From the NCBI GenBank assembly GCA_017613015.1, contig JAGAEQ010000077.1, forward strand, positions 1-43,551: 43,551 bases of DNA, read 5' to 3'. Made by a program: the position numbers and the translations under genes. The notes under the pieces are model-generated. The model was not told the origin of the DNA and did no database searches. It saw nothing but the letters and a program-made list of their open reading frames with translations. Of the stretch, positions 2,988-34,550 are shown in pieces (the stretch's first letter is position 1; each line of letters opens with the position of its first letter). This stretch comes from Bacteroidales bacterium. GTDB lineage: Bacteria > Bacteroidota > Bacteroidia > Bacteroidales > WCHB1-69.

Positions 2988-4448
2988 TTATTTCACAGGA
3001 ATATTAACCAATGTCTCAACCAGGAATTTCCAGAATTTGTCCACACTTTCAATGTTCACTTTCTCATCGGGGGAGTGCGGATGCATAATGGTCGGACCGA
3101 AGGAGATCATGTCCCAGTTGGGATATACGCCACCCAGCAGTCCGCATTCCAGACCGGCATGTATGGCTTTGATTTCCGGATCTTTGTTGAACAGTTTGCG
3201 GTAGGTGGCCATCATGGTTTTCAGGATGGGGGATTCCATGTTGGGTTTCCATCCCGGGTAGGCGCCGGTCAGGCTGATTTCCGCACCGGCCATTTCGGCT
3301 ATGGCGCTCATGCGCTCGCCGACCGCTTCCTTCGCGGAATCCACAGAGCTGCGGAGCAGGCACATGACGGTCACTTTGCCGTTTTCGGATTTGATAATGG
3401 CGAGGTTGGAGGAGGTTTCCACCAGTCCCTTCATGGAGTCGCTCATGCGGAGCACGCCGTTCGGCAGTGCGTACACGGTGTTGATGACGTTCTTCTGGCA
3501 GGCTATTTCCATCACTTTTGCCGGCGTGTCGGCGGCTTTCACTTCGATTTTGCCGTCGGGTTCGGTCAGGGAGAACTCGTTTTTGACGGTTTGGGCGAAT
3601 TGGGCGGCTAATTTCTCGAAAGCGGCGGCTTTGTCAGCGGGCACGGCCACGGTGGCAAAAGCTTCTCTCGGGATGGCGTTGCGCAGGCTTCCGCCGGTAA
3701 TGGAGGAGATGCGCATTCCGCATTCCTTGGTGGCTTTGTATAACAAGCGGTTTATCAACTTGTTGACATTTGCTCTTCCCAAATCGATGTCCATGCCGGA
3801 GTGACCGCCCTTGAAACCGGTGAATTCAATGCGGTAGCCTTTCATTCCGGCGGGAGTGGCGGTTTCCTTGTAGGGGATTTCAATGGTGGCGTCCAAACCT
3901 CCGGCGCAGCCGACGTAGAGTTCGCCCTCCGTTTCAGAGTCCATGTTCAGGAAAATGTCCCCTTCCAGTTCTCCGGCTTTGAGGTTGGAGGCTCCGGTCA
4001 TTCCGGTTTCCTCGTCCACCGTCACAAGCGCTTCCAAGGGACCGTGCACCAAGTTGTCGGATTGCATGACGCTCATGGCCGCCGCGACGCCTATGCCGTT
4101 GTCGGCGCCTAAGGTGGTGCCGTTTGCCCGCACCCAGCCGTCTTCGCAAACCCTCATTTCAATAGGGTCGGTCAGGAAATCGTGCTTTTTGTCCGAATTT
4201 TTCTGCGGCACCATGTCAATATGCCCTTGCAGAATGACTTTTTTGCGGTTTTCCATGCCGGGAGTGGCCGGTTTGCGCATAATGATGTTCCCGATAGCGT
4301 CCTGACGGGCTTCAATGTGGTGCTCTTTGGCCCACTGCATCAGCGAAGCGGTGATTTTCTCTTCGTGTTTGGAAGGGTGGGGAATGGAGCAGATGCGCTT
4401 GAAGTTTTCCCATACTAATTTGGAGTCCAATGTGCTTAAGTCTATCAT
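2988..4448 (-). CDS. pepD: Beta-Ala-His / Xaa-His dipeptidase (cytosol nonspecific dipeptidase), M20C family
   Basis: A 486-aa zinc aminoacylhistidine dipeptidase that splits dipeptides in the cytoplasm. Length and motifs match family M20C throughout. The metal-binding segments are visible: VILQGHIDMVPQ (first metal His and Asp), GTTLGADNGIGVAAAM (bridging Asp), VTVDEETGMTGA (general-base Glu then metal Glu), NMDSETEGELYVGCAGG, and IHAGLECGLLGG near the C-terminus. The lid/dimerization domain lies between, with FTGFKGGHSGMDI. No signal peptide is present, which fits a cytosolic enzyme. The gene ends at a good terminator at 2941-2975. The porin gene lies 78 bp upstream on the same strand. Confidence 0.96.
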   Translation of the reverse strand: MIDLSTLDSKLVWENFKRICSIPHPSKHEEKITASLMQWAKEHHIEARQDAIGNIIMRKPATPGMENRKKVILQGHIDMVPQKNSDKKHDFLTDPIEMRVCEDGWVRANGTTLGADNGIGVAAAMSVMQSDNLVHGPLEALVTVDEETGMTGASNLKAGELEGDIFLNMDSETEGELYVGCAGGLDATIEIPYKETATPAGMKGYRIEFTGFKGGHSGMDIDLGRANVNKLINRLLYKATKECGMRISSITGGSLRNAIPREAFATVAVPADKAAAFEKLAAQFAQTVKNEFSLTEPDGKIEVKAADTPAKVMEIACQKNVINTVYALPNGVLRMSDSMKGLVETSSNLAIIKSENGKVTVMCLLRSSVDSAKEAVGERMSAIAEMAGAEISLTGAYPGWKPNMESPILKTMMATYRKLFNKDPEIKAIHAGLECGLLGGVYPNWDMISFGPTIMHPHSPDEKVNIESVDKFWKFLVETLVNIPVK

Positions 4449-4526: not shown

Positions 4527-6461
4527 TCAGTCATAAAATCTCCAGGAGACGCCTATGCGGAACCCGGCTCCTTTCGCCGGATAGTGCGGGAACAGGAAGG
4601 GGTGGAAGTCCGGAAGGGCCGCCAAGGCGTTGGTGTAGGCGAAAGAAATGTGGAAATGCTCTATGCGGGCGTTGATGAATCCGTTGAGGTAAAGGTCGTT
4701 GCCGATTAAGGTGCCGCTTTGGTTGTGGAACTGCCGCAGGGAGGCCTGATAGGCGTCGGCGTAATAGGCGGTGAAATACAGGCCTTCCACGCCGAACTGC
4801 ACGTAGGCCTTGTCATGAAAAACGGGGAAACCGTAGAACAGGCTGTTCCGTGTGCAGAATGCGGGAAGATGCAGGGAGTCGCTGTTACTGTGCTGCACAT
4901 AGGCGTGCAGATTGGCACCCAATCCTTTCCATTGCAAAGGCAAAAACACCTCACCCTGAAGGACTTGTATTGACTTGTCGTGCTGACGGACGCGCAGGTC
5001 TTCGGTCAGGTAGGTGTGGTTTGTCAAAATATGGTTGCGCAGGGCGAGCTGGCAGCCTTTGATGTCCAACAAGGCTTCCCATTGGAGGTGTTGCTGTTTT
5101 TTCAGCTGGTTGTCCCAGCAAAAATAGTTGGACACGTAGTGGCTGAACAGGTAGTCCGCCTCGTAGTGCGCGTACCGCAGGCTCGTCCGGAAAAAGCCGA
5201 TGCGTTGCCGGGTGCTGTCCGAGGTTTTCCGCAGCAGGGGCAGGGTGCAGTCGGTCTGGTAATGCAGGTCGCCGGCATTGTAGCCGCTGAAGGCGTAGTA
5301 CACGCGATGCCCCCAGTTGCCCCATTGCCGGAGGGGCAGTTGCGCCAAGGCGTGCAGGGCGCAAACGTCGCTGTGGAAGCTCCCCAAGGTGTCCTCCATG
5401 CGGATGTGTTCGTGCGAAAGCCCGAAAAACAGGCGGAAAGCCGTGTCCGCACGCAGGCAGGGCGCGACGTTGCTCCATCCGAGGATGTTCCGCAGCTGCC
5501 TGCCGTGGATGAAGTCGGCGGTGTTCATGCTGTCGAAGGCCGGGAAGGGATGGCTTTCCCTGTTGAAATCCGTTTCCGTGTAGGTGGAGTGCATGCCCTT
5601 GTAGTCTAATTGGTGGGTCAGGTAGCCCATGTGCGACGGCGTGAAGCGGCCGTTGCTGTCCCGTTGGTTCTGTAGCCGCAGCCAGTGGCGGTAGGAGAAG
5701 TGGTGGTCGCTGCCGCGGTTGAGTGCGGTGGGGGTGTTCACTTCGATGGCGCGGGCCTCCAGTCCGGCGTAATAGTCGGAATCGTTGGCGATGCCGCCGC
5801 TCTCATGCAGGGTGAAAAGGTTGTAGACAAAGCTCAGCCCAAAACCGTAACGGTTGGTGTCCGAGTGATGCAAACCACTGAATCCTAAATTAATGTCCCT
5901 CACGCCCTCGTTTACGTAAATGCCGTTGGACAAACGGGTCTGCAAGGCGAGGTTGTAGCGGAAATTCCCTGTCTGCTGGGCGTGTTCCACCTCAAAGGCG
6001 TTTTCCTGTCCGTTCCGCTTTTCGTATTGCAGCAGGGTGTAGACCCCGTCCACTTCGCACTGCCTCCAGGTCGCGAGACGGCGTTGGTAGCAGGGGTAGG
6101 GAAGGGTGGCGTAGCGAAATCCGGCTTGCAGGGAAGGCGCGTAGTTCAAACTTTGGTGGGCCTGTCCTATAGTACTGAGCGTTTGGTAAATGTTGTGCGC
6201 CCCCAACAAGCTTTCCCGTCGTTGCTCCCCAGTGATGCCCGTGTCCGCGCAGCCTTGGGGCAGTTGGTAGGGAAAGGTTTCAGACAACAGGAAATAACGC
6301 ACGTCCCGGTGGGAAATACTGGAATCCACCCCGATAAAGGAAGCGGGGGTCTGCGGTTGGGCTGTGTCGGAGGTCGATTGCCCCTTCGCCTGGAAAAGGC
6401 AGAGGCACAGCATGCCTGTCAGCAGCCCGAGGAATCGCATATTCCGGTGTGTATGTGTCAT
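4527..6461 (-). CDS. Putative porin, outer-membrane beta-barrel
   Basis: A 644-aa outer-membrane protein. The chosen ATG at 6461 is preceded by GGGAGA; an in-frame TTG at 6482 is less likely. A signal peptide follows (RFLGLLTGMLCLCLFQAKGQ). The rest alternates polar and aromatic residues as in amphipathic beta strands (for example RYGFGLSFVYNLFTLH, VYYAFSGYNAGDLHYQ). It ends in GFRIGVSWRFYD, the C-terminal aromatic strand expected for BAM-inserted barrels. The overall plan and this ending resemble the Bacteroidota 'putative porin' family, but I could not check the match. It lies 57 bp downstream of the MORN-repeat gene. Substrate unknown. Confidence 0.65.
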   Translation of the reverse strand: MTHTHRNMRFLGLLTGMLCLCLFQAKGQSTSDTAQPQTPASFIGVDSSISHRDVRYFLLSETFPYQLPQGCADTGITGEQRRESLLGAHNIYQTLSTIGQAHQSLNYAPSLQAGFRYATLPYPCYQRRLATWRQCEVDGVYTLLQYEKRNGQENAFEVEHAQQTGNFRYNLALQTRLSNGIYVNEGVRDINLGFSGLHHSDTNRYGFGLSFVYNLFTLHESGGIANDSDYYAGLEARAIEVNTPTALNRGSDHHFSYRHWLRLQNQRDSNGRFTPSHMGYLTHQLDYKGMHSTYTETDFNRESHPFPAFDSMNTADFIHGRQLRNILGWSNVAPCLRADTAFRLFFGLSHEHIRMEDTLGSFHSDVCALHALAQLPLRQWGNWGHRVYYAFSGYNAGDLHYQTDCTLPLLRKTSDSTRQRIGFFRTSLRYAHYEADYLFSHYVSNYFCWDNQLKKQQHLQWEALLDIKGCQLALRNHILTNHTYLTEDLRVRQHDKSIQVLQGEVFLPLQWKGLGANLHAYVQHSNSDSLHLPAFCTRNSLFYGFPVFHDKAYVQFGVEGLYFTAYYADAYQASLRQFHNQSGTLIGNDLYLNGFINARIEHFHISFAYTNALAALPDFHPFLFPHYPAKGAGFRIGVSWRFYD

Positions 6462-6518
6462 TTGTCTCCCATTTGCATCCAAGGGCAGCGACAGCTTGTG
6501 CAGAAAGCGGCAACAGCT

Positions 6519-7562
6519 TTAGTCCTGTTTCGGGGCTTCGTTGTTCAGCAGGCTTTTCAGCAGCTTGTAGTAGTCGCCGTCGCAGATGACTTCGAAATCC
6601 GTGTCCGGTTTAAGCAGAATGACCGCCTCCTCGTTTTGCGCGTTGGCAGGGGTCACCTTCTTGATGGCGGTGTAGGAGCTTAGCACATTCTCGTTGATGA
6701 AGGTGAAATTCTCCGCACCGGCCCGTTGGGCGATGTTTGTCAGCTTGTCGTTCTGCACAGGGACGGTTTTCTTGTTTTTCAGCTTGACAATGATTTCTGT
6801 CGGGCCCTGGTAGAAATAGGCGATGGCTTTCACATTCAGCTTGACCCATTGTCCGTTGCTGAGGAAGCCTAACCACATTTCCTTGGATTGCCCTTTCTCA
6901 AAAACCTGAACCACAAGCTCTTTTCCTTGTTCGTTGTAGGTTATCCACTGCCCGTCCCGGAAATCCTCCTTGTAGGTCCCTTTGGTCCAGAGTTTGCCGC
7001 TTTCGTAATAGTTTTCAAACGGGCCGTCCATCTTGTTGTCCTTGTAGGACATTTTCAAGCGGAGCTTGCCGTTGCTGAAATTGTTGAAAGCGGGGCCTTC
7101 CTTTTTGTCGTCTTTCCAGGTGATTTCCTCTAAAATCACACCGTTTTTGGGCGAATAGAGACGGAAGGGGCCGTTTTTCCTGCATTGGACATAATGCTCT
7201 TCCGAAATGAGCTTGCCAGCGGTGTTGTAGTATTTCCACAGGCCGTCCTTCTTTTTGTTGACGTAAATGCCTTCGGCGGACTTGACACCGTTTTCATGGT
7301 ACAGGGTGGTGGTGACCCTGGGGGAGTTGAGGGTGTACACCGAGACCCCTTTCACTTTCCCGTTAGGGTAATAGTGGGTCATTTTCCCGACCGGTTCCCC
7401 GTTATAGAAACGGCCTTCATACACCAGGGCTTTCTGGTCGTCATAAACCTTCCAGTAACCGTATTTTTTTCCGTGCTTGTCGGTGCGGTTCAGGGTGTCT
7501 GACTGGGCAAAAGCTCCGGCGGTCAAACAAATGCAGCAGATGATGGTGAGCAGTTTTCTCAT
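6519..7562 (-). CDS. Exported MORN-repeat (YwqK-like) protein
   Basis: A 347-aa protein with a signal peptide (MRKLLTIICCICLTAGAFAQ). From about residue 25 to 230 it carries a series of MORN_2-type repeats with the core YY.NGK/G.W.YY pattern: GYWKVYDDQKALVYEGRFYN, YYPNGKVKG, LYHENGVKSAEG, LWKYYNTAGKLISEE, FENYYESGKLWTKGTY, QWITYNEQGKELV. The last ~110 residues form a separate domain with no repeat and no family that I recognise. Such repeat proteins are common in Bacteroidota and are often labelled 'toxin-antitoxin YwqK antitoxin', a name that here has no support from a partner gene. It lies only 8 bp after gatD, so it is probably in the gatED transcript. Confidence 0.82.
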   Translation of the reverse strand: MRKLLTIICCICLTAGAFAQSDTLNRTDKHGKKYGYWKVYDDQKALVYEGRFYNGEPVGKMTHYYPNGKVKGVSVYTLNSPRVTTTLYHENGVKSAEGIYVNKKKDGLWKYYNTAGKLISEEHYVQCRKNGPFRLYSPKNGVILEEITWKDDKKEGPAFNNFSNGKLRLKMSYKDNKMDGPFENYYESGKLWTKGTYKEDFRDGQWITYNEQGKELVVQVFEKGQSKEMWLGFLSNGQWVKLNVKAIAYFYQGPTEIIVKLKNKKTVPVQNDKLTNIAQRAGAENFTFINENVLSSYTAIKKVTPANAQNEEAVILLKPDTDFEVICDGDYYKLLKSLLNNEAPKQD

Positions 7563-7570
7563 AAGGTTGT

Positions 7571-9028
7571 TTATTTATGCACTTTATGTACGAATTCCTC
7601 CACTTCGGGAACGCCGCCCTGATAGATAAGGTAGCCGTCGTAGGGCTCGCGGGGCGTGGTTTCGCTGTTGATGGGCGTGAGCATCAGCTTGCGGACTTCC
7701 TCCCTGTCGTGGGTCAGGCCCAAAGCCCATCCCAATTTGATGTAGGCGGATTCGGCCAGCATGTTGTCAGCGGGGATGATGCCTCTTGCCATCAGGTCAC
7801 GGCCGGTGTCGTAGACGAACATGTGGGTGTAGCCCCAAATGGTCTGGACGCACATGTACTGGTGGATGCCCGCGTCCGTGGCTTTCTGGATGGCCTCGAA
7901 CATGCCTTTGTTCACGTGTCCCAAACCGGTGCCGTCCCAGACGATGCCTTTGTAGCCTTTGTCAATCAGGGCTTCCAGCACATCAGGCTTCATGCCCGGA
8001 TAGTAGTACAGTATGGCTACGCGGTCGTCGAAAACGGGGACGATGCGGGCGGTGTTGGGGTCGTTGGCGGCGACACTCGCCTTGTAGGCGGCCAAGTCGG
8101 TGATTACCTCCACTTTGCGCTCCTGGTTCTTGCGGCGGTGGTTGTACACTTCCTTGATGGGCTGCACCCCGTCTTTGCGGCTAATGGTGGCTAACGGCGT
8201 GTCGCCGATGGTACGGAAGGTGGAGCGGTAGAAGGAGTGCATTTTGCGCACGCGGGTGCCGCGGTGCAGGAAACCGTATTCATCCGAAGTGGGGCCGAAC
8301 ATGCAGACCATCACTTCCGCGATGTCGCCGTGTCCGGCGGCGGTCATGGCATGCATCAGGTTGAGGGCCGCATCGGAGCTCGGACGGTCGGAGGAACGTT
8401 GCGATCCGACCAGCACGACCGGCATCGGCAGGTTTTGGCACATGTACGTCAAAGCGGTGGCGGTGTGGGCCAAGGTGTCAGTTCCGTGTCCGATGACAAT
8501 GCCTTCGATGCCCGCTTTCACCTCATCGCCGATTTTTTTCGCCAAGGCGATGTATTCCTTGGGGGACATGTTTTCCGAGAAGACGGCAAACACCTTTTCC
8601 GTGTCTAAGTTGCAGATATCCGCCAGTTCAGGGACGGCGCCGTAGAGCTCACCCGGCGAGAAGGCCGGAATCACGGCTCCCGTGCGGTAGTCTAAGCGGG
8701 AGGCAATGGTGCCGCCGGTACCCAACAGTTTCACATGGGGCAATCCCGGGGTGTAGGGGAACTCCTTCTCCGGAATCTTGAAGTTGGGTTGCGGGTCGCG
8801 CTCCCCTTTCATGTTGGTGATGGTGGTAATGTCCAAGCCGATGTTGTAGCCGGTGATCACTTTCATCACAATGTGCAGGTCGTCGGTGTTTTCCGCCCGG
8901 GGCAGGATTTTTCCGCTGAAATGGCCGCGGGTGGTCTCCACTTCCGCTTTGTCCCATACGTGCACGTAGTATTTTTTCAATATGTCAAGTGCCCTTCCTT
9001 TGTATCCTTGAAATGTTTTATCGTCCAT
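7571..9028 (-). CDS. gatD: Glu-tRNA(Gln) amidotransferase subunit D (archaeal type)
   Basis: A 485-aa glutaminase subunit that frees ammonia for conversion of Glu-tRNA(Gln) to Gln-tRNA(Gln) by GatE. About 85 N-terminal residues form the small beta domain typical of GatD and absent from plain asparaginases (YVHVWDKAEVETTRGHFSGK, HIVMKVITGYNIGLDI). The L-asparaginase-like domain follows, with catalytic threonine motifs LLGTGGTIASRLDY and VIGHGTDTLAHTA, and GSQRSSDRPSSDAALNL. Length is close to the archaeal 420-450 aa plus a short extension. The ATG at 9028 is preferred over TTG at 9037. It lies 36 bp downstream of gatE, its expected partner, which makes a simple asparaginase unlikely. GatD is described as an archaeal protein, so its presence here is notable. 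Confidence 0.93.
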   Translation of the reverse strand: MDDKTFQGYKGRALDILKKYYVHVWDKAEVETTRGHFSGKILPRAENTDDLHIVMKVITGYNIGLDITTITNMKGERDPQPNFKIPEKEFPYTPGLPHVKLLGTGGTIASRLDYRTGAVIPAFSPGELYGAVPELADICNLDTEKVFAVFSENMSPKEYIALAKKIGDEVKAGIEGIVIGHGTDTLAHTATALTYMCQNLPMPVVLVGSQRSSDRPSSDAALNLMHAMTAAGHGDIAEVMVCMFGPTSDEYGFLHRGTRVRKMHSFYRSTFRTIGDTPLATISRKDGVQPIKEVYNHRRKNQERKVEVITDLAAYKASVAANDPNTARIVPVFDDRVAILYYYPGMKPDVLEALIDKGYKGIVWDGTGLGHVNKGMFEAIQKATDAGIHQYMCVQTIWGYTHMFVYDTGRDLMARGIIPADNMLAESAYIKLGWALGLTHDREEVRKLMLTPINSETTPREPYDGYLIYQGGVPEVEEFVHKVHK

Positions 9029-9064
9029 GGTGTTCAAATGGTTTTCAAAATAATGGTTATGTTT

Positions 9065-11020
9065 TTAAATTTCTTTCGCCAGTTCGGCCAGGTTCATGTT
9101 TCCTAAACCCATTGCACGGAGTTTTCCCATGATGCTGTTGATCCTGTCCTTGGGGCCGCTGTTTTTCCGGGCGGGGGAGAAGGCTTGTTTGGCCATCTCT
9201 TTTGCCTTGGAAAGCAGTTCTTTTTCAGACATTTTTTGGTATCCGACAGCTTTCAGCATGTCCGCAAACTCCATGTCGGGATGGGCGAACATCACAGCCA
9301 GCATCTTCTTGGCGATGGCGAAGTCCATGCCCTCCTGTTTCAGGAAGGCGAACAGCTTGGCGATACGGCAGGTGCAGAAAGGCAGGCATCCGTATTGGCC
9401 GTGGAGGTGCTTGAGGGTGTGGCCGAACAGCGTGCCCACGAATTTGGGAGCCGCGCCCGTTTCCTCCACAATCTGTTTGATGCGGGGGTAATGGTTGTAG
9501 GTGAAAATGTAGTCGAAGCAGTCTTCGGGAATGCCCCAGCGGGTGCATTGCACATAGCGTTCGGAAACTTCTTCAGGAATATTCTTGCGCAGATTTTCAA
9601 TGTATTCGTTGCTCAACGGAATGGGCGCAGAGTCGGTGTCGGGGTACATGCGGTCGGCACCCGGCAGCACGCGCTCGAAAATGGTGGTGGCGTCGTACAT
9701 GACCTTGCGGGTTTCGTTGGGCACTCCGTCAAACGTCATCAAAGCGCGTTCCTCAATGGTTCCCAAAGCCGTTTGCACATCGTCCTCCGGAGCCCAGAAA
9801 ATGATTTGGGCGTCCTCTTCGGTGGCGTGCATTTGGGCGCGCACCTGGTCAAACACATGGTCGCTGACCACATCGTCAATGTCTTCGCTGGTCGCCATGT
9901 TCGGACGCTCTAAGCAGGCAATCACTTTCAAGCGGCTGGCGAACTCATCGTAGAAGGGGCGGCCCGGCTGGCAGAAATGTGACAGCAGACCGGCGAACTT
10001 CGGCAGATTCACCGCGTAGAGCTTTTCCTTGCGGCCGATGGCGTCGGTAATCGGCGTGAAGTAGAATTTGTATTTTTTCGGATCCAGTTCCAAAACACCC
10101 ATCTTCCAGTCCTCTTTGCGGATGCGCTTTTTCAGCGTGTCGCGGATGGCGAGCAGAGCCCACTGGCGGAAGCATTCGTAATGGGTCACGTCCGGAATCC
10201 ATTTCGTGTGGGAAACGCCCTTGACCTCGATACGGGTGCCACCCTTGCAGCTGACGTTCACGTCCTGACGGCCCGCGCCTATGCCGGTGCGCACGCGTCC
10301 GGTGCTGCGGTTGAGGAATCGGATGTACTGTGCGGCTTCCCTGACCTCGTCCGGATTCATCAGTTCCGGTGCGGTGACGGTTTCAATTAACGGCATGCCC
10401 AGACGGTCGGTGCGGTAGATGCGCGTATGCCCGATGTCGGAGATTTCGCGGCAGGCGTCTTCCTCCACGCTGAGCTGGATCAGATGCACTTTCTTGTTTT
10501 TCAGAGAGATTTCCCCTTCCACACCCAGAATGGCCGTGCGTTGGAATCCCGTGGGGATGGAGCCGTCCAGGTACTGTTTGCGGGTCACATGCACTTCGCC
10601 CACAATGTTCAGCTTGGAGGCCAAGGCGATTTCCAAAGCGTATTGCAGGGCCTCCGGATTCAGCGGGAACGGAGGGGTGTCGTCCACGTCGTAGGTGCAG
10701 GCGGTTTTATGGGCAATACGGTAAACGATATTTTTCCGGGTCCGGAATTCCATCAGGGCGGTGCCGTCGTAGCCGCCCATTTCCGACAGTGTCGGGCGCA
10801 TGTGGCGGAGCAGTTCGGCATCGTACTGGTCCGGTTTCTGGAAAATGCCGGCCGGACAGTGGCAGAACAGTTTTTCTTTGGTGGCAAGTTGCTGGTGCAC
10901 TTCCAGTCCAGACATAAAACCGATACGGTCATAATCGGCCTGTGTGGCTTCCTTGCGGTCCACATACCCGATGGCCTTTTTGCTCAATTCGTAGTTCTCT
11001 TGCGGATTTATCGTTTTCAC
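9065..11020 (-). CDS. gatE: Glu-tRNA(Gln) amidotransferase subunit E (archaeal type)
   Basis: The 651-aa kinase/transferase subunit that binds Glu-tRNA(Gln), phosphorylates the glutamyl group and aminates it with ammonia from GatD. GatB-like cradle motifs start at GLEVHQQLATKEKLFCHCP (about residues 36-54). MPLIETVTAPELMNPDEVREA, VRTGIGAGRQDVNVSC and GTRIEVKGVSH follow; the family-specific insertion and C-terminal YqeY-like helical tail (GKLRAMGLGNMNLAELAKEI) are present. Length matches archaeal GatE (about 620 aa) plus a short N-terminal extension. I place the start at GTG 11020, because the open frame upstream has no plausible start and reads through a promoter-like TAATTTTG. The extension before the GatB-like motif could mean the real start is slightly different. 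Confidence 0.92.
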   Translation of the reverse strand: MKTINPQENYELSKKAIGYVDRKEATQADYDRIGFMSGLEVHQQLATKEKLFCHCPAGIFQKPDQYDAELLRHMRPTLSEMGGYDGTALMEFRTRKNIVYRIAHKTACTYDVDDTPPFPLNPEALQYALEIALASKLNIVGEVHVTRKQYLDGSIPTGFQRTAILGVEGEISLKNKKVHLIQLSVEEDACREISDIGHTRIYRTDRLGMPLIETVTAPELMNPDEVREAAQYIRFLNRSTGRVRTGIGAGRQDVNVSCKGGTRIEVKGVSHTKWIPDVTHYECFRQWALLAIRDTLKKRIRKEDWKMGVLELDPKKYKFYFTPITDAIGRKEKLYAVNLPKFAGLLSHFCQPGRPFYDEFASRLKVIACLERPNMATSEDIDDVVSDHVFDQVRAQMHATEEDAQIIFWAPEDDVQTALGTIEERALMTFDGVPNETRKVMYDATTIFERVLPGADRMYPDTDSAPIPLSNEYIENLRKNIPEEVSERYVQCTRWGIPEDCFDYIFTYNHYPRIKQIVEETGAAPKFVGTLFGHTLKHLHGQYGCLPFCTCRIAKLFAFLKQEGMDFAIAKKMLAVMFAHPDMEFADMLKAVGYQKMSEKELLSKAKEMAKQAFSPARKNSGPKDRINSIMGKLRAMGLGNMNLAELAKEI

Positions 11021-29301: not shown

Positions 29302-32300
29302 ATGATGAAGAAAAAAGTCTTCGCCCGGCTATGCGGCTTATGTTTGTGCCTCGCCTCCCTTTTTTCAGGGCATGCGCAGTCCTGGACGCAGGAGGTGACC
29401 CTGGCTGACTGGCGGACGGTGAGGGAGGAGCTTGCCTCCGGGGAGCGAATCCAGTACCTGTTTTTCGAGTCCGCATTTTTGGAGAAAAAAGGCGGTCGGC
29501 TGATGCCCTATTGGCAGCGGCAGTGGCCTTGCCCAGAGGGGCGGCGTTACCGCGTCGAAGTGTCCGAAGGGCGTTGGGAGGCCTTGTCTGAAGCGGAAAA
29601 GGCCTGTCTTCCTTTGGCGGTGTTGGACTCCTTGTCAGAACTTTACAGCGTCTCCCGGGTCGTCACCCGCAAACAGCCCATGACGGAGGTCAGGGTGTGG
29701 CCTTTCCGCAAACGGAACGGGACGTATGAGAAACTGCGCTCCTTCCGGCTTTCGGGAGTGTTGGAGGACGTCCCCGAACAGAAGTCCGGCGTGCAGAAAT
29801 CCTATGTGCCGCATTCGGTGCTGGCTTCCGGTGAAATTTACAAGGTGGCCCTTTCCGGCACGGGTGTTTACAAAGTGACCCACTCCCTTTTGGCAAGCAT
29901 GGGCGTGCGGATGAGCGGCCTGAACATCCGGGCCGTTTCCGTGTACGGGAACGGGGGCTTCCAGTTGCCGGAAAACACCCACGAGAAGGTTCCTGATGAC
30001 ATTCAGGAGGTTCCGCTCAAAGTGGTGGACGTGGACGGCGACGGGATTTTCGATGCGGAGGACTACCTGCTGTTTTATGCCAGGGGCATTGTGGAATGGA
30101 AATGTGATGCCAACGCTTCCTTCGTCCATACCTTGAACGTGTATTCCGATTACGCCTATTATTTCATCAAAATCAACCAGGCACCGACGAAAACGCTTGG
30201 CACGGCGCAGTCCGTCACCGCGACGCCCACCCATGTCCTGACTTCCTACCGCTACCACGGGCTGCTGGAAGAGGACCTTATCAGTCCGACGGGCGTGGGA
30301 CGCTTGTGGTTCAAGGATTTGTTCGATGCCATCACTTCCCGCACCTATACCTTTTCCTTGCCGGCCTTGGAGGCTTCCACCAAAGTGGACCTGCTGTTGC
30401 GCTTAGCCGTTTCCTCGCCTTCCTATGCCTCGTATTTCTCCTACCGGGCGGACGGAGGGGACTTGGGTTCCGTGGGCATGACTTCCGGCAAGGGCGAAGT
30501 GAAATCCGCCAGATACTCCTTCACTCCCACATCCTCAAACTTTTCTCTCACATTGAATTACAGCAAACCGGCCAACACTTCCAAGGGGTGGTTGGATTAC
30601 ATAGAGGTCAATGCCTCTTGCCAGTTGCGGCAGTCCTCCTCTCAGTTCGATTTCCGTTGTCCCGCCGCGGTCGGGGCGGGGAATGTGGCGGAATACCGCA
30701 TCCAGACCTTGGGTCACGCGCCGGAGGTTTGGGACGTGACCGACCCCTATGCCTATCGCAAGGTGGAGACCACGCAGGACGGAGGGACGCTTTCCTTCCG
30801 CCTTCCTGCGGACAGCCTGCGGGAGTTTGTCTCGTTTTACGGCTCCGATTTGCCCGTGCCTTCTCCTGTGGGAAGGGTGGCCAATCAGGACTTGCATGCC
30901 GCCGAGGCGACCGATCTGGTGATTCTCACCCCGCCCGCTTTCCTGAGCTATGCCGAACAGTTGGCCAATTTGCGCCGCAGCAGTCAGATGCGTGTGCTGG
31001 TAGTGACCACCACGCAGGTTTATCAGGAGTTCGGGAGCGGGGCCCAGGACATTGCGGCCATTCGGAATTTCATGCGGATGCTGTACGAGCGTCACCCTTC
31101 CGACCCGCCGAAAAACCTGCTTTTGTTCGGCAAGACTTCTTACGATTTCAGAAACCGTAAAGGATTGGGAACCTGTTATATTCCCAACTATCAGGCTTCA
31201 GAGGTCTTTGATGAGGACGAGTGCCTTTCCACCGATGATTTCTTTGTCAAACTTGATGATTACGAGGGAAAAAATAACAACGGAACCATGGATGTGGGCT
31301 TGGGGCGCATTCCCGTCAGCACGGCGGAGCAGGCGGCCACGGCCGTCCAGAAACTCAAGCAGTACGCTTCCATGGATTTGCTGAACGATGTGCGCTCCAA
31401 CGACATCTCCAACTTGGCGGACTGGCGCAATATTTTGGCTTTCTGTGCCGATGACGACGCGGATGCCATGGGGCACATCTACAATGCCGACCGTATCGCC
31501 ATACAGGTGGCCGCCGACTATCCGGTATACAACATCGAAAAAATCTATTTGGATGCCTATAAAAAAGTCTCCACTTCCCAGGGGCAGCGCTTCCCGGATG
31601 CCACGGAAGCGCTGAATCAGCGCGTGAACAAGGGCTGCCTATTCCTGACCTACATGGGGCATGGCGGGGATAACGGCTGGGCGCACGAGCGCATTCTGAA
31701 ACGTTCCGACATCAGTTCGTGGACCAACCGCTACAATTTTCCGTTTCTCTATGCTGGTTCCTGTTCCTTCGGGGTTTACGACAAATTGAGCTCGCTTTCG
31801 CCTTCGGAGGACATGCTGTTCAAGGCGGACGGCGGCACCATCGGTGTGATTTCCGCCTCCCGCAGTTCTTATGGCGGTACCAACGAAGCTTTTGGCATGC
31901 AGTTGCACAACCTCATGCTTGCCACAGACAGCAATGCCGCGCATTTGACCATGGGAGAGGTGTTTGCCACAGCCAAAAACCGCTGCGGCTCCGTCAACAT
32001 GTACATCTTTTTCGGGGACCCCTCCATGACCCTCGCCTTCCCAAAAACACAGGTGAAGACAGACAGTGTGAACGGTTCCGTCCAAATAACGGACGACACG
32101 TTGCAAGCCTTGTCCTACGTGACCATCAGCGGCCACGTGTGCGCTCCGGACGGCAGCCTCGCCCGGGACTTCAACGGCTATGTGTACCCGACCGTTTACG
32201 ACAAGGCGACGAAGGTGACCACCTTGCTCAACAACAGTGTCAGCACTGAGAAAACCTTTCAGTTACAGAAGAATATCCTGTACAAAGGAAAAATTTCGGT

Positions 32301-33117
32301 CACCAACGGCTGTTTCCGTTTCGGTTTCCTGCTTCCCAAGGACATCAATTACGACTATGGTTTCGGTAAAATCAGCTATTATGCGTATGGCAACCGTCTG
32401 GACGCCAACGGCTACGACACGGTGCGCATAGGCGGCATCAAGGATACGGCCATCAGCGACAACCGGGGTCCGGAGATTCGGCTGTACCTGAACGACGAAA
32501 CCTTCGTGAGTGGCGGCGTTTCCGGAAGCAGTCCGACCCTTTTGGCCGAAATCAGCGACGAAAACGGGGTGAACACGGCGGGCATCGGCATTGGGCATGA
32601 CATTGTGGCGGTGCTGGACCGGGACGAGGGCAACCCCATTGTGCTGAACGATTATTACGAATGCGAAGAGAACAGCAGCCTTTCCGGAAAAATACGCTAT
32701 CTTCTCTCCGATTTGCCGGAAGGGGAGCATAGCCTGAGCCTGCGGGCCTGGGATGTGCTGAACAACCGGGGCGAGGCTTCGTTGGTGTTCACGGTGGCGG
32801 ATCCCAAGGACATCGCGTTGGAGCATGTGCTGAACTATCCCAACCCATTCACCACCCATACGCAGTTCTATTTTGAACACAACCAGATTAATACCACGCT
32901 GGAAGTTCGCATACAGGTGTTCACGGTTTCCGGAAAACTGGTCAAGACCATTTTGCATACGGAATTTGCGGAATCCTTCCGCTGCGGTCCTTTAGACTGG
33001 GACGGAAGGGACGATTTCGGCGGGCGTTTAGCCAAAGGAACGTACCTTTACAAGTTGAGTGTGCGCACGGCTGATGGCCAGAAAGCCGAGAAAATAGAGA
33101 AGCTCGTGCTATTGTAG
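29302..33117 (+). CDS. porU: T9SS C-terminal signal peptidase/sortase PorU (C25 gingipain-like)
   Basis: A 1271-aa outer-membrane-attached cysteine protease that removes the C-terminal sorting domain of T9SS cargo and, in P. gingivalis, attaches it to A-LPS. Signal peptide ends near GHAQ. An N-terminal domain (about 25-540) precedes the C25 catalytic domain (about 540-930). The catalytic His is in FLTYMGHGGDNGW (about residue 786) and Cys in YAGSCSFGVYD (about 820). Beta-sandwich modules and a CTD-type domain (YPNPFTTHTQFYF, AKGTYLYKLSV) close it. In PorU this domain is known to remain. Length and domain order match. porV follows 146 bp downstream, as in P. gingivalis. Confidence 0.95.
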   Translation: MMKKKVFARLCGLCLCLASLFSGHAQSWTQEVTLADWRTVREELASGERIQYLFFESAFLEKKGGRLMPYWQRQWPCPEGRRYRVEVSEGRWEALSEAEKACLPLAVLDSLSELYSVSRVVTRKQPMTEVRVWPFRKRNGTYEKLRSFRLSGVLEDVPEQKSGVQKSYVPHSVLASGEIYKVALSGTGVYKVTHSLLASMGVRMSGLNIRAVSVYGNGGFQLPENTHEKVPDDIQEVPLKVVDVDGDGIFDAEDYLLFYARGIVEWKCDANASFVHTLNVYSDYAYYFIKINQAPTKTLGTAQSVTATPTHVLTSYRYHGLLEEDLISPTGVGRLWFKDLFDAITSRTYTFSLPALEASTKVDLLLRLAVSSPSYASYFSYRADGGDLGSVGMTSGKGEVKSARYSFTPTSSNFSLTLNYSKPANTSKGWLDYIEVNASCQLRQSSSQFDFRCPAAVGAGNVAEYRIQTLGHAPEVWDVTDPYAYRKVETTQDGGTLSFRLPADSLREFVSFYGSDLPVPSPVGRVANQDLHAAEATDLVILTPPAFLSYAEQLANLRRSSQMRVLVVTTTQVYQEFGSGAQDIAAIRNFMRMLYERHPSDPPKNLLLFGKTSYDFRNRKGLGTCYIPNYQASEVFDEDECLSTDDFFVKLDDYEGKNNNGTMDVGLGRIPVSTAEQAATAVQKLKQYASMDLLNDVRSNDISNLADWRNILAFCADDDADAMGHIYNADRIAIQVAADYPVYNIEKIYLDAYKKVSTSQGQRFPDATEALNQRVNKGCLFLTYMGHGGDNGWAHERILKRSDISSWTNRYNFPFLYAGSCSFGVYDKLSSLSPSEDMLFKADGGTIGVISASRSSYGGTNEAFGMQLHNLMLATDSNAAHLTMGEVFATAKNRCGSVNMYIFFGDPSMTLAFPKTQVKTDSVNGSVQITDDTLQALSYVTISGHVCAPDGSLARDFNGYVYPTVYDKATKVTTLLNNSVSTEKTFQLQKNILYKGKISVTNGCFRFGFLLPKDINYDYGFGKISYYAYGNRLDANGYDTVRIGGIKDTAISDNRGPEIRLYLNDETFVSGGVSGSSPTLLAEISDENGVNTAGIGIGHDIVAVLDRDEGNPIVLNDYYECEENSSLSGKIRYLLSDLPEGEHSLSLRAWDVLNNRGEASLVFTVADPKDIALEHVLNYPNPFTTHTQFYFEHNQINTTLEVRIQVFTVSGKLVKTILHTEFAESFRCGPLDWDGRDDFGGRLAKGTYLYKLSVRTADGQKAEKIEKLVLL

Positions 33118-33160
33118 TGAAAAAAAAAAGAAATAGTGATTTTCATAAACATAAATTATA

Positions 33161-33168
33161 TACTTTTG
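33161..33168 (+). promoter_or_regulatory. -7 box of porV
   Basis: TACTTTTG fits TAnnTTTG, in an AT-rich gap of 146 bp after porU; the 95-base leader before the ATG at 33264 is long. A TTTT/TTTC around 33140-33144 is a poor -33. It suggests that porV can be transcribed apart from porU. Confidence 0.5.
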
Positions 33169-33263
33169 CAAGTTCGATTGGGCGTGTTTCCCTCAAAAGG
33201 TTTTTTGGGGGAAAGGCGCGGTCGGTATAGCGAAAAAACAGAATATAAATAATAAAATATCAA

Positions 33264-34550
33264 ATGGTTAAGCAATTCAAGAAATCAATAGGCCTTTTCC
33301 TGTTACTGACGCTTCCCTGTTTCATGGTGTCGTATGCCCAGTCCGGTTACAAGAACAATGGACAGGCTTACAATGGGACAACCATCCGTCCCCTGACCAC
33401 TGCGGTCTCCTATTTGCAGGTCGGACCGGACGCCCGTACCGGTGGTATGGGTGAAGTGGGAGCGGCCCTGCCTGACGATATGAACGCCCAGCACTGGAAT
33501 GCGGCCAAGTACGCCTTTTCGCAGAACAAATTGGGTGTGTCCGCCACGTACAGCCCCTGGCTGGCCGGTTTGGGCTTAGGTTTGCAGGACATTTACATGG
33601 CTTACTTGAGCGGTCACATGAAGCTGACCTCTTTGGACGCCATCTCCTTCTCGCTGACGTATTTCTCTTTAGGCGAGATGGACATCACCGACTATGAGGG
33701 CGCCACGATTTTCGAAAACGTCAAGCCTCATGAGTTTGCCTTGGACGCGGCCTATTCCCGCAAACTGACCGACAATTTCTCCATGGCGGTCACGGGACGC
33801 TTCATTTATTCCAACCTGACCACCGTGAGCGATGTCTCCACCAACACCAGCGATTTGAAGCCGGGTCTGGCCGGAGCGGCGGATGTGGCCTTGTTCTATC
33901 AGAAAGAACTGAGGGCAAACAACTTGTATAAAAGCCTGATTGGAGCCGGTCTGACAATTTCCAACATAGGAAACAAGATTTCGTACTCCAACGACATGGA
34001 CAAAGACTTCCTGCCCGCCAATTTCCGTTTGGGTGTGGCCTACACCATGTATGTGGACAAGTACAACAAGCTGACCTTTGAGTTCGACGTGAACAAGCTG
34101 CTGGTGCCGAGCACGGTCATCTATAAGAACGACACGGCTTCTGACGGCAAGATCCGGAAAGTGGTGGATCAGGCTGAAACCATGATTACCGCCAAAGATC
34201 CCAGAGACGTTTCCGTGATTGACGCCATTTACCGTTCCTGGTTCGACGCGCCGGGCGGCATGAAAGAGGAATTGGATGAATACATTCTGAACGTGGGTGT
34301 GGAATACACCTACAATGAGCTGTTCTCCGTCCGTGCGGGTTATTTCAACGAGGCCAAGACCAAGGGCGCCCGTAAATATTTCACCTTCGGCGCCGGTTTG
34401 CGTTACAGCATGGTGAATTTCGACGCTTCCTATATCGCCGTGCTGCCGGTGGACGGTTTGCAGGGCACCCATCCGTTGAAGAACACGGTGCGTTTGAGCC
34501 TGTCGTTCGACATCAACGCTCCTGACGCCAAGGCTTCCATTCAACGTTAG
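33264..34550 (+). CDS. porV: T9SS outer-membrane protein PorV (LptO)
   Basis: A 428-aa FadL-like beta barrel that binds the sorting domain of cargo and carries it to PorU. Signal peptide (IGLFLLLTLPCFMVSYAQ) is followed by the family-specific opening: TTAVSYLQVGPDARTGGMGE, DDMNAQHWNAAKYAF, then SWFDAPGGMKEELDEYILNVGVEYTYNE near the end. Length matches. The C-terminus is polar (KASIQR), as in other PorV proteins. It follows porU and precedes ispF by 12 bp, so the run of plus-strand genes may be partly one transcript. Confidence 0.95.
   Translation: MVKQFKKSIGLFLLLTLPCFMVSYAQSGYKNNGQAYNGTTIRPLTTAVSYLQVGPDARTGGMGEVGAALPDDMNAQHWNAAKYAFSQNKLGVSATYSPWLAGLGLGLQDIYMAYLSGHMKLTSLDAISFSLTYFSLGEMDITDYEGATIFENVKPHEFALDAAYSRKLTDNFSMAVTGRFIYSNLTTVSDVSTNTSDLKPGLAGAADVALFYQKELRANNLYKSLIGAGLTISNIGNKISYSNDMDKDFLPANFRLGVAYTMYVDKYNKLTFEFDVNKLLVPSTVIYKNDTASDGKIRKVVDQAETMITAKDPRDVSVIDAIYRSWFDAPGGMKEELDEYILNVGVEYTYNELFSVRAGYFNEAKTKGARKYFTFGAGLRYSMVNFDASYIAVLPVDGLQGTHPLKNTVRLSLSFDINAPDAKASIQR

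Follow-up and report, generated by a model that had tools for sequence, protein, structure and literature searches.

GatDE, a tRNA-dependent amidotransferase ascribed to archaea, is common in Bacteroidales and may serve asparagine rather than glutamine

The amidotransferase GatDE is described in reviews as now confined to archaea (PMC9499178, 2022; PMC8007984, 2021), where the tRNA that it reads is tRNA(Gln) (PMC9499178). When bacterial routes to amide-tRNAs were surveyed in 2014, GatDE was not among the enzymes sought, and no known bacterium encoded both routes to Gln-tRNA(Gln) (PMC4206432). Here, we analyzed a stretch of 43,551 nucleotides from a Bacteroidales bacterium (assembly GCA_017613015.1, contig JAGAEQ010000077.1), which we refer to as the window. 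An intact gatE-gatD operon lies on its minus strand at 7571-11020.

The first gene, gatE (9065..11020, minus strand), begins with a GTG at 11020 and encodes 651 residues of amidotransferase subunit E. It is followed by gatD (7571..9028, minus strand), encoding the asparaginase-like glutaminase subunit of 485 residues. We preferred the ATG at 9028 as the start of gatD over the alternative TTG at 9037, where the mechanical open reading frame starts, and with this choice the genes are separated by 36 bases, as originally predicted. GatE exceeded the cut-offs of the NCBI equivalog profiles TIGR00134 (389.6 bits, cut-off 319.6) and NF003107 (456.5 bits, cut-off 456, residues 27-635 aligned). It also matched GatB_N in Pfam (1.5e-47), and the GatB-like motif noted previously, GLEVHQQLATKEKLF, is located at residues 38-52. 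GatD likewise exceeded TIGR02153 (462.7 bits, cut-off 324) and NF003217 (456 bits, cut-off 310), and its predicted N-terminal domain and asparaginase motifs were recovered in Pfam as GatD_N (PF18195) and both asparaginase domains (N-terminal PF00710 and C-terminal PF17763). Four residues that we take to be of catalytic type based on asparaginases (T110, T186, D187, and K265) were invariant across 22 Bacteroidota GatD. The YqeY-like tail attributed to GatE was less evident than claimed, with no Pfam match at 1e-3, although NF003107 reaches residue 635 and C-terminal helices are predicted. This tail has diverged between Bacteroidales and other classes.

Structural comparison gave a similar picture. 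The top PDB matches of an AF2 model of GatE (pLDDT 80.8) were 1zq1_C and 2d6f, with GatB behind, and the model contains the GatE-type fold with the insertion domain that is absent from GatB. The closest sequences of solved structure were the archaeal GatD and GatE of P. abyssi and M. thermautotrophicus; GatB was much more distant. We consider the two proteins almost certain to be true GatD and GatE. Bacteroidota GatD additionally carries a conserved tail (YLIYQGGVPEVEEF..K) extending about 20 residues past the last aligned archaeal residue (window 7571-7630).

Directly downstream of gatD is a gene for a MORN-repeat protein (6519..7562, minus strand; MORN_2), which possibly shares a transcript with gatE-gatD. 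Beyond it are a Porin_10 outer-membrane protein that marks a Bacteroidota host (4527..6482, start uncertain, minus strand; PF14121, 7e-73) and a PepD-like cytosolic dipeptidase (2988..4448, minus strand; TIGR01893, 608 bits). All three genes hold the same place in relatives L016 and L029. The order gatE-gatD-MORN-porin-dipeptidase is kept in two independent metagenome-assembled genomes (MAGs) of rumen Bacteroidales, RUG11939 and UBA1195, whose proteins are 89% (GatE) and 96% (GatD) identical to those of the window. Relatives with names are rumen and gut Bacteroidales MAGs. Other flanking Bacteroidota genes encode a T9SS-tailed protease (Por_Secre_tail), PorU, PorV, MutL, and AtpD, with porU (1271 aa) and porV standing as adjacent type IX secretion genes at 29302-34550. 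GC content is even over the window at 50-58%.

The locus is far from singular. GatE was found over cut-off in 122 of 295 sampled Bacteroidales genomes (41%) and in none of about 70 sampled genomes from other orders of the class. Elsewhere in the phylum, it occurred in 21 genomes from other classes, and a GatB-like match accompanies it in nearly all of these. At nearly all loci with flanks long enough to judge, gatD came after gatE. In a tree rooted on GatB, Bacteroidota GatE formed a single clade (bootstrap 100, SH-aLRT 97) with three archaeal sequences alongside (100/96), one of them a Natrinema plasmid stretch read in two frames; three sequences are too few to orient any ancient transfer. 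Hence, the idea of a special recent gift from archaea found no support; GatDE at this locus is a bona fide bacterial enzyme that has long been resident in Bacteroidales. Within the open-access literature searched, this real and ordinary-looking distribution in bacteria is unreported. The Bacteroidales group of the tree also contains one genome from another class of the phylum (G450, L222), whose Bacteroidales-type GatE is 57% identical to that of the window, which suggests transfer of bacterial GatDE between classes. Some Bacteroidales have a GatB match beside GatE (e.g., G013, G050, G089, G009, and G127), and in these three amide-tRNA systems may coexist: GlnRS/AsnRS, GatDE, and perhaps GatCAB.

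In the original prediction, the host either obtains Gln-tRNA(Gln) through a route taken from archaea or has both routes. Only the coexistence of GatDE with GlnRS stands: glnS passed its cut-off in 266 of the 295 Bacteroidales genomes, including that of the window (E = 7e-193), ruling out that GatDE replaces GlnRS. The two proteins belong to GatD and GatE, but the locus falls outside the archaeal pathway, whose host lacks GlnRS. Moreover, glnS was present in 111 of 122 genomes with GatE and 157 of 168 without (p = 0.5), so glutamine loading does not predict the presence of GatE. The glnS profile generally had only two matches per genome, which we take to be a GlnRS and a GluRS, leaving no obvious extra GluRS. 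In the archaeal pathway, the tRNA(Gln) read by GatDE has A1-U72; here, a pattern search aimed at tRNA(Gln) picked up only tRNA(Pro) and chance matches. In one genome (G039, L129 168-5387), glnS, gatE, and gatD follow one another on the same strand, spaced by about 125 and 30 bases from match to match, which apparently places both Gln-tRNA routes in one operon.

Asparagine synthetases showed a different pattern. The E. coli-type AsnB (NF006949) was present in 2 of 122 genomes with GatE versus 87 of 168 without (odds ratio 0.016, p = 1e-23), and AsnA in 20 versus 89 of the same genomes (p = 1e-10). This anti-association held when only genomes at least 90% complete were considered (p = 3e-20 for AsnB and 3e-8 for AsnA), and the median p-value was 8e-7 for AsnA or AsnB against GatE with one genome per family. 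AsnA or AsnB accompanied GatE in 22 of the 122 genomes. Among a subset of 43 genomes with GatE, about half had no AsnA, AsnB, or AsnB-like (TIGR01536) protein over cut-off, and about a third had long AsnB-like proteins (about 600-670 aa). Long AsnB-like proteins are common in surface-polysaccharide clusters, and they might make asparagine in those genomes. AsnRS was found in all 80 genomes searched. The genome of the window has AsnRS, GlnRS, and one AspRS, and neither AsnA nor E. coli-type AsnB was found in it; these absences are weak alone because the genome is 79.6% complete, but they are common to near-complete relatives. Two genomes belong to the few exceptions to this pattern. In G263 (L224/L132, G263:C33), which has the E. 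coli-type AsnB, gatE is apparently disrupted inside the contig, with residues 2-129 and 236-651 in different frames and the roughly 106 residues between them represented by 209 bases. In G217, gatE is intact and the only AsnB match is degraded or divergent.

Since the sampled genomes are related to one another, kinship bears on the correlation between GatE and the synthetases. A Pagel-type fit of correlated evolution on the AspRS tree preferred dependence (LR 32, p = 2e-6), although this test is known to be over-sensitive. Independent pairs on supported branches gave 5-6 contrasts, of which none went the same way, about 2.6 went in opposite directions, and 3.4 showed no difference, making the comparison underpowered. 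Concatenating AspRS, AsnRS, and GlnRS still resulted in too few resolved contrasts. Across ten families having members with and without GatE, those without it show no gain of AsnA or AsnB over their relatives, which implies that when GatE is lost, a synthetase is not directly acquired in exchange. Phylogenetically controlled support for the link is weak.

Genomes that have asparagine synthetases mostly lack GatE, and GatE sits beside GlnRS; for this reason, GatDE may serve asparagine rather than glutamine in Bacteroidales. Co-occurrence thus points to a role that the original prediction, while right about orthology and coexistence with GlnRS, did not consider. By homology, GatD would hydrolyze glutamine to release ammonia, and GatE would use ATP to phosphorylate and activate the carboxylate in the side chain of a mischarged aminoacyl-tRNA before amidating it. 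The substrate in Bacteroidales would mainly be Asp-tRNA(Asn), arising through some leakage of the single AspRS. GatDE would then provide asparagine for translation in genomes lacking AsnA and AsnB, while Gln-tRNA(Gln) would be made directly by GlnRS. Our leading reading is that the role of bacterial GatDE in Bacteroidales is asparagine, by amidation of Asp-tRNA(Asn) as performed by GatCAB in Bdellovibrio, and we give it close to an even chance. The broader proposition, that GatDE exchanged Glu-tRNA(Gln) for Asp-tRNA(Asn) as its substrate and became the asparagine-making enzyme for a large part of Bacteroidales, is put forward somewhat more tentatively.

The reading of Asp-tRNA(Asn) as substrate draws on the synthetase pattern, on tRNA(Asn), and on a motif change in GatE. 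The tRNA(Asn) of the window genome has U1-A72, as it does in eight other genomes with GatE. In contrast, tRNA-Asn(GTT) has G1-C72 in two genomes with GatE (G003, L164; G201, L167) and one without gatE (G101, L177), with the other Bacteroidales examined having U1-A72. G1-C72 of tRNA(Asn) is described as an antideterminant for Asp-tRNA amidation (PMC9976931), and its occurrence beside GatE counts against Asp-tRNA(Asn) as substrate. In the GatE motif RKQYLDGSIPTGFQR, Bacteroidota share Tyr150 and Pro156 with GatB, whereas archaeal GatE has Val and Thr/Val. Judging from GatB structures, this motif probably lines the aminoacyl pocket. AspRS weighs against Asp-tRNA(Asn) as substrate. Its anticodon-domain residues at the positions of E. 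coli L30 and K81 were discriminating-like in 78 genomes and did not differ between those with GatE and those with AsnB, although the L30/K81 rule comes from Proteobacteria and is not universal. No clear non-discriminating AspRS signature was found in genomes with GatE. The AspRS columns differing most were near the C-terminal end, and ancestry confounds the difference. Nor was an additional AspRS of archaeal type, like that of Deinococcus, seen, with one AspRS over cut-off per genome and no extra copy in the AsnRS search. Also weighing against an asparagine role are the reading of tRNA(Gln) by archaeal GatDE (PMC9499178), the 22 genomes in which AsnA or AsnB accompanies GatE, and the long AsnB-like proteins.

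How do other explanations compare with an asparagine role? One would be contamination, or a recent transfer from archaea into the window genome alone, for which nothing but the protein family names speaks. It can be considered ruled out given the uniform GC, the type IX secretion neighbors (PorU, PorV, and Por_Secre_tail), the gene order shared with RUG11939 and UBA1195, the 122 positive genomes among 295, and the position of GatE inside Bacteroidales, and we assign it a negligible probability. In this respect, the original view was correct that this Bacteroidota genome carries intact genes for true orthologues of GatD and GatE. The main rival is that GatDE retains its archaeal function: GluRS would mischarge tRNA(Gln) with glutamate and GatDE would amidate the product, as a second route, or one for repair, in addition to GlnRS. 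Such retention would be in keeping with orthology to archaeal GatDE (equivalog models passed, fold matched to 1zq1 and 2d6f), with a GatE core largely as in archaea (109 conserved columns identical), and with the glnS-gatE-gatD row in G039. However, it would supply a product for which 111 of 122 genomes with GatE already have GlnRS, without association between the two, and it would do so with no obvious extra GluRS and in a combination of Gln-tRNA(Gln) routes that in 2014 was known from no bacterium (PMC4206432). It also leaves the anti-association between GatE and AsnB unexplained. We regard this rival as somewhat less likely than the asparagine role.

A further explanation gives GatDE a different substrate, or makes it a salvage enzyme linked to glutaminase or asparaginase activity, with the AsnB pattern stemming from a shared life-style, such as that of peptide-fed anaerobes. 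GatD is a relative of asparaginases and could affect asparagine pools, and families show repeated losses of GatE that no gain of AsnA or AsnB accompanies. The G1-C72 tRNA(Asn) of some genomes with GatE and the conserved C-terminal tail of Bacteroidota GatD past the archaeal end point in the same direction. Nevertheless, the ATP and amidation core motifs of GatE and the catalytic residues of GatD are preserved, and gatE and gatD are paired at nearly every locus, making salvage or life-style a rather improbable account. Relative to these alternatives, amidation of Asp-tRNA(Asn) remains our leading reading, and the results hint that GatDE in Bacteroidales has changed role, a scenario that is coherent but unproven.

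Irrespective of its substrate, GatDE is common across a bacterial order beside GlnRS, contrary to statements in reviews that it belongs to archaea only. If GatDE makes asparagine, predictions of asparagine auxotrophy based on AsnA, AsnB, and GatABC alone (e.g., PMC9026213) would miscall such genomes. An Asp-tRNA(Asn) role, if true, would be a function undescribed for any GatDE in the open-access literature searched.

Compared with archaeal GatDE from Methanothermobacter thermautotrophicus (2D6F) and Pyrococcus abyssi (1ZQ1), the window proteins have the same subunits, domain order, catalytic-type residues, and fold, with E-values of 4e-85 and 4e-81, respectively, for GatE and 1e-102 and 1e-104 for GatD. 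They differ in that the bacterial host has GlnRS and AsnRS, the substrate-side motif of GatE is YLDGSIPTG in Bacteroidota rather than the archaeal V[IV]DGSN (RKxVxDGSN), the C-terminal tRNA-binding region has diverged, and GatD carries its conserved extra C-terminal tail. Type I L-asparaginases share their catalytic domains with GatD, which adds GatD_N and a gatE partner; a separate asparaginase-like gene is present in the window genome at C48. The Bdellovibrio-type asparagine route (PMC4206432) is similar in having AsnRS, GlnRS (which Staphylococcus lacks), one AspRS, and often neither AsnA nor AsnB, and the U1-A72 tRNA(Asn) of the window genome is a further likeness. Unlike that route, AspRS here is without the known non-discriminating signature, and GatDE takes the place that GatCAB occupies in the Bdellovibrio gene set (PMC4206432).
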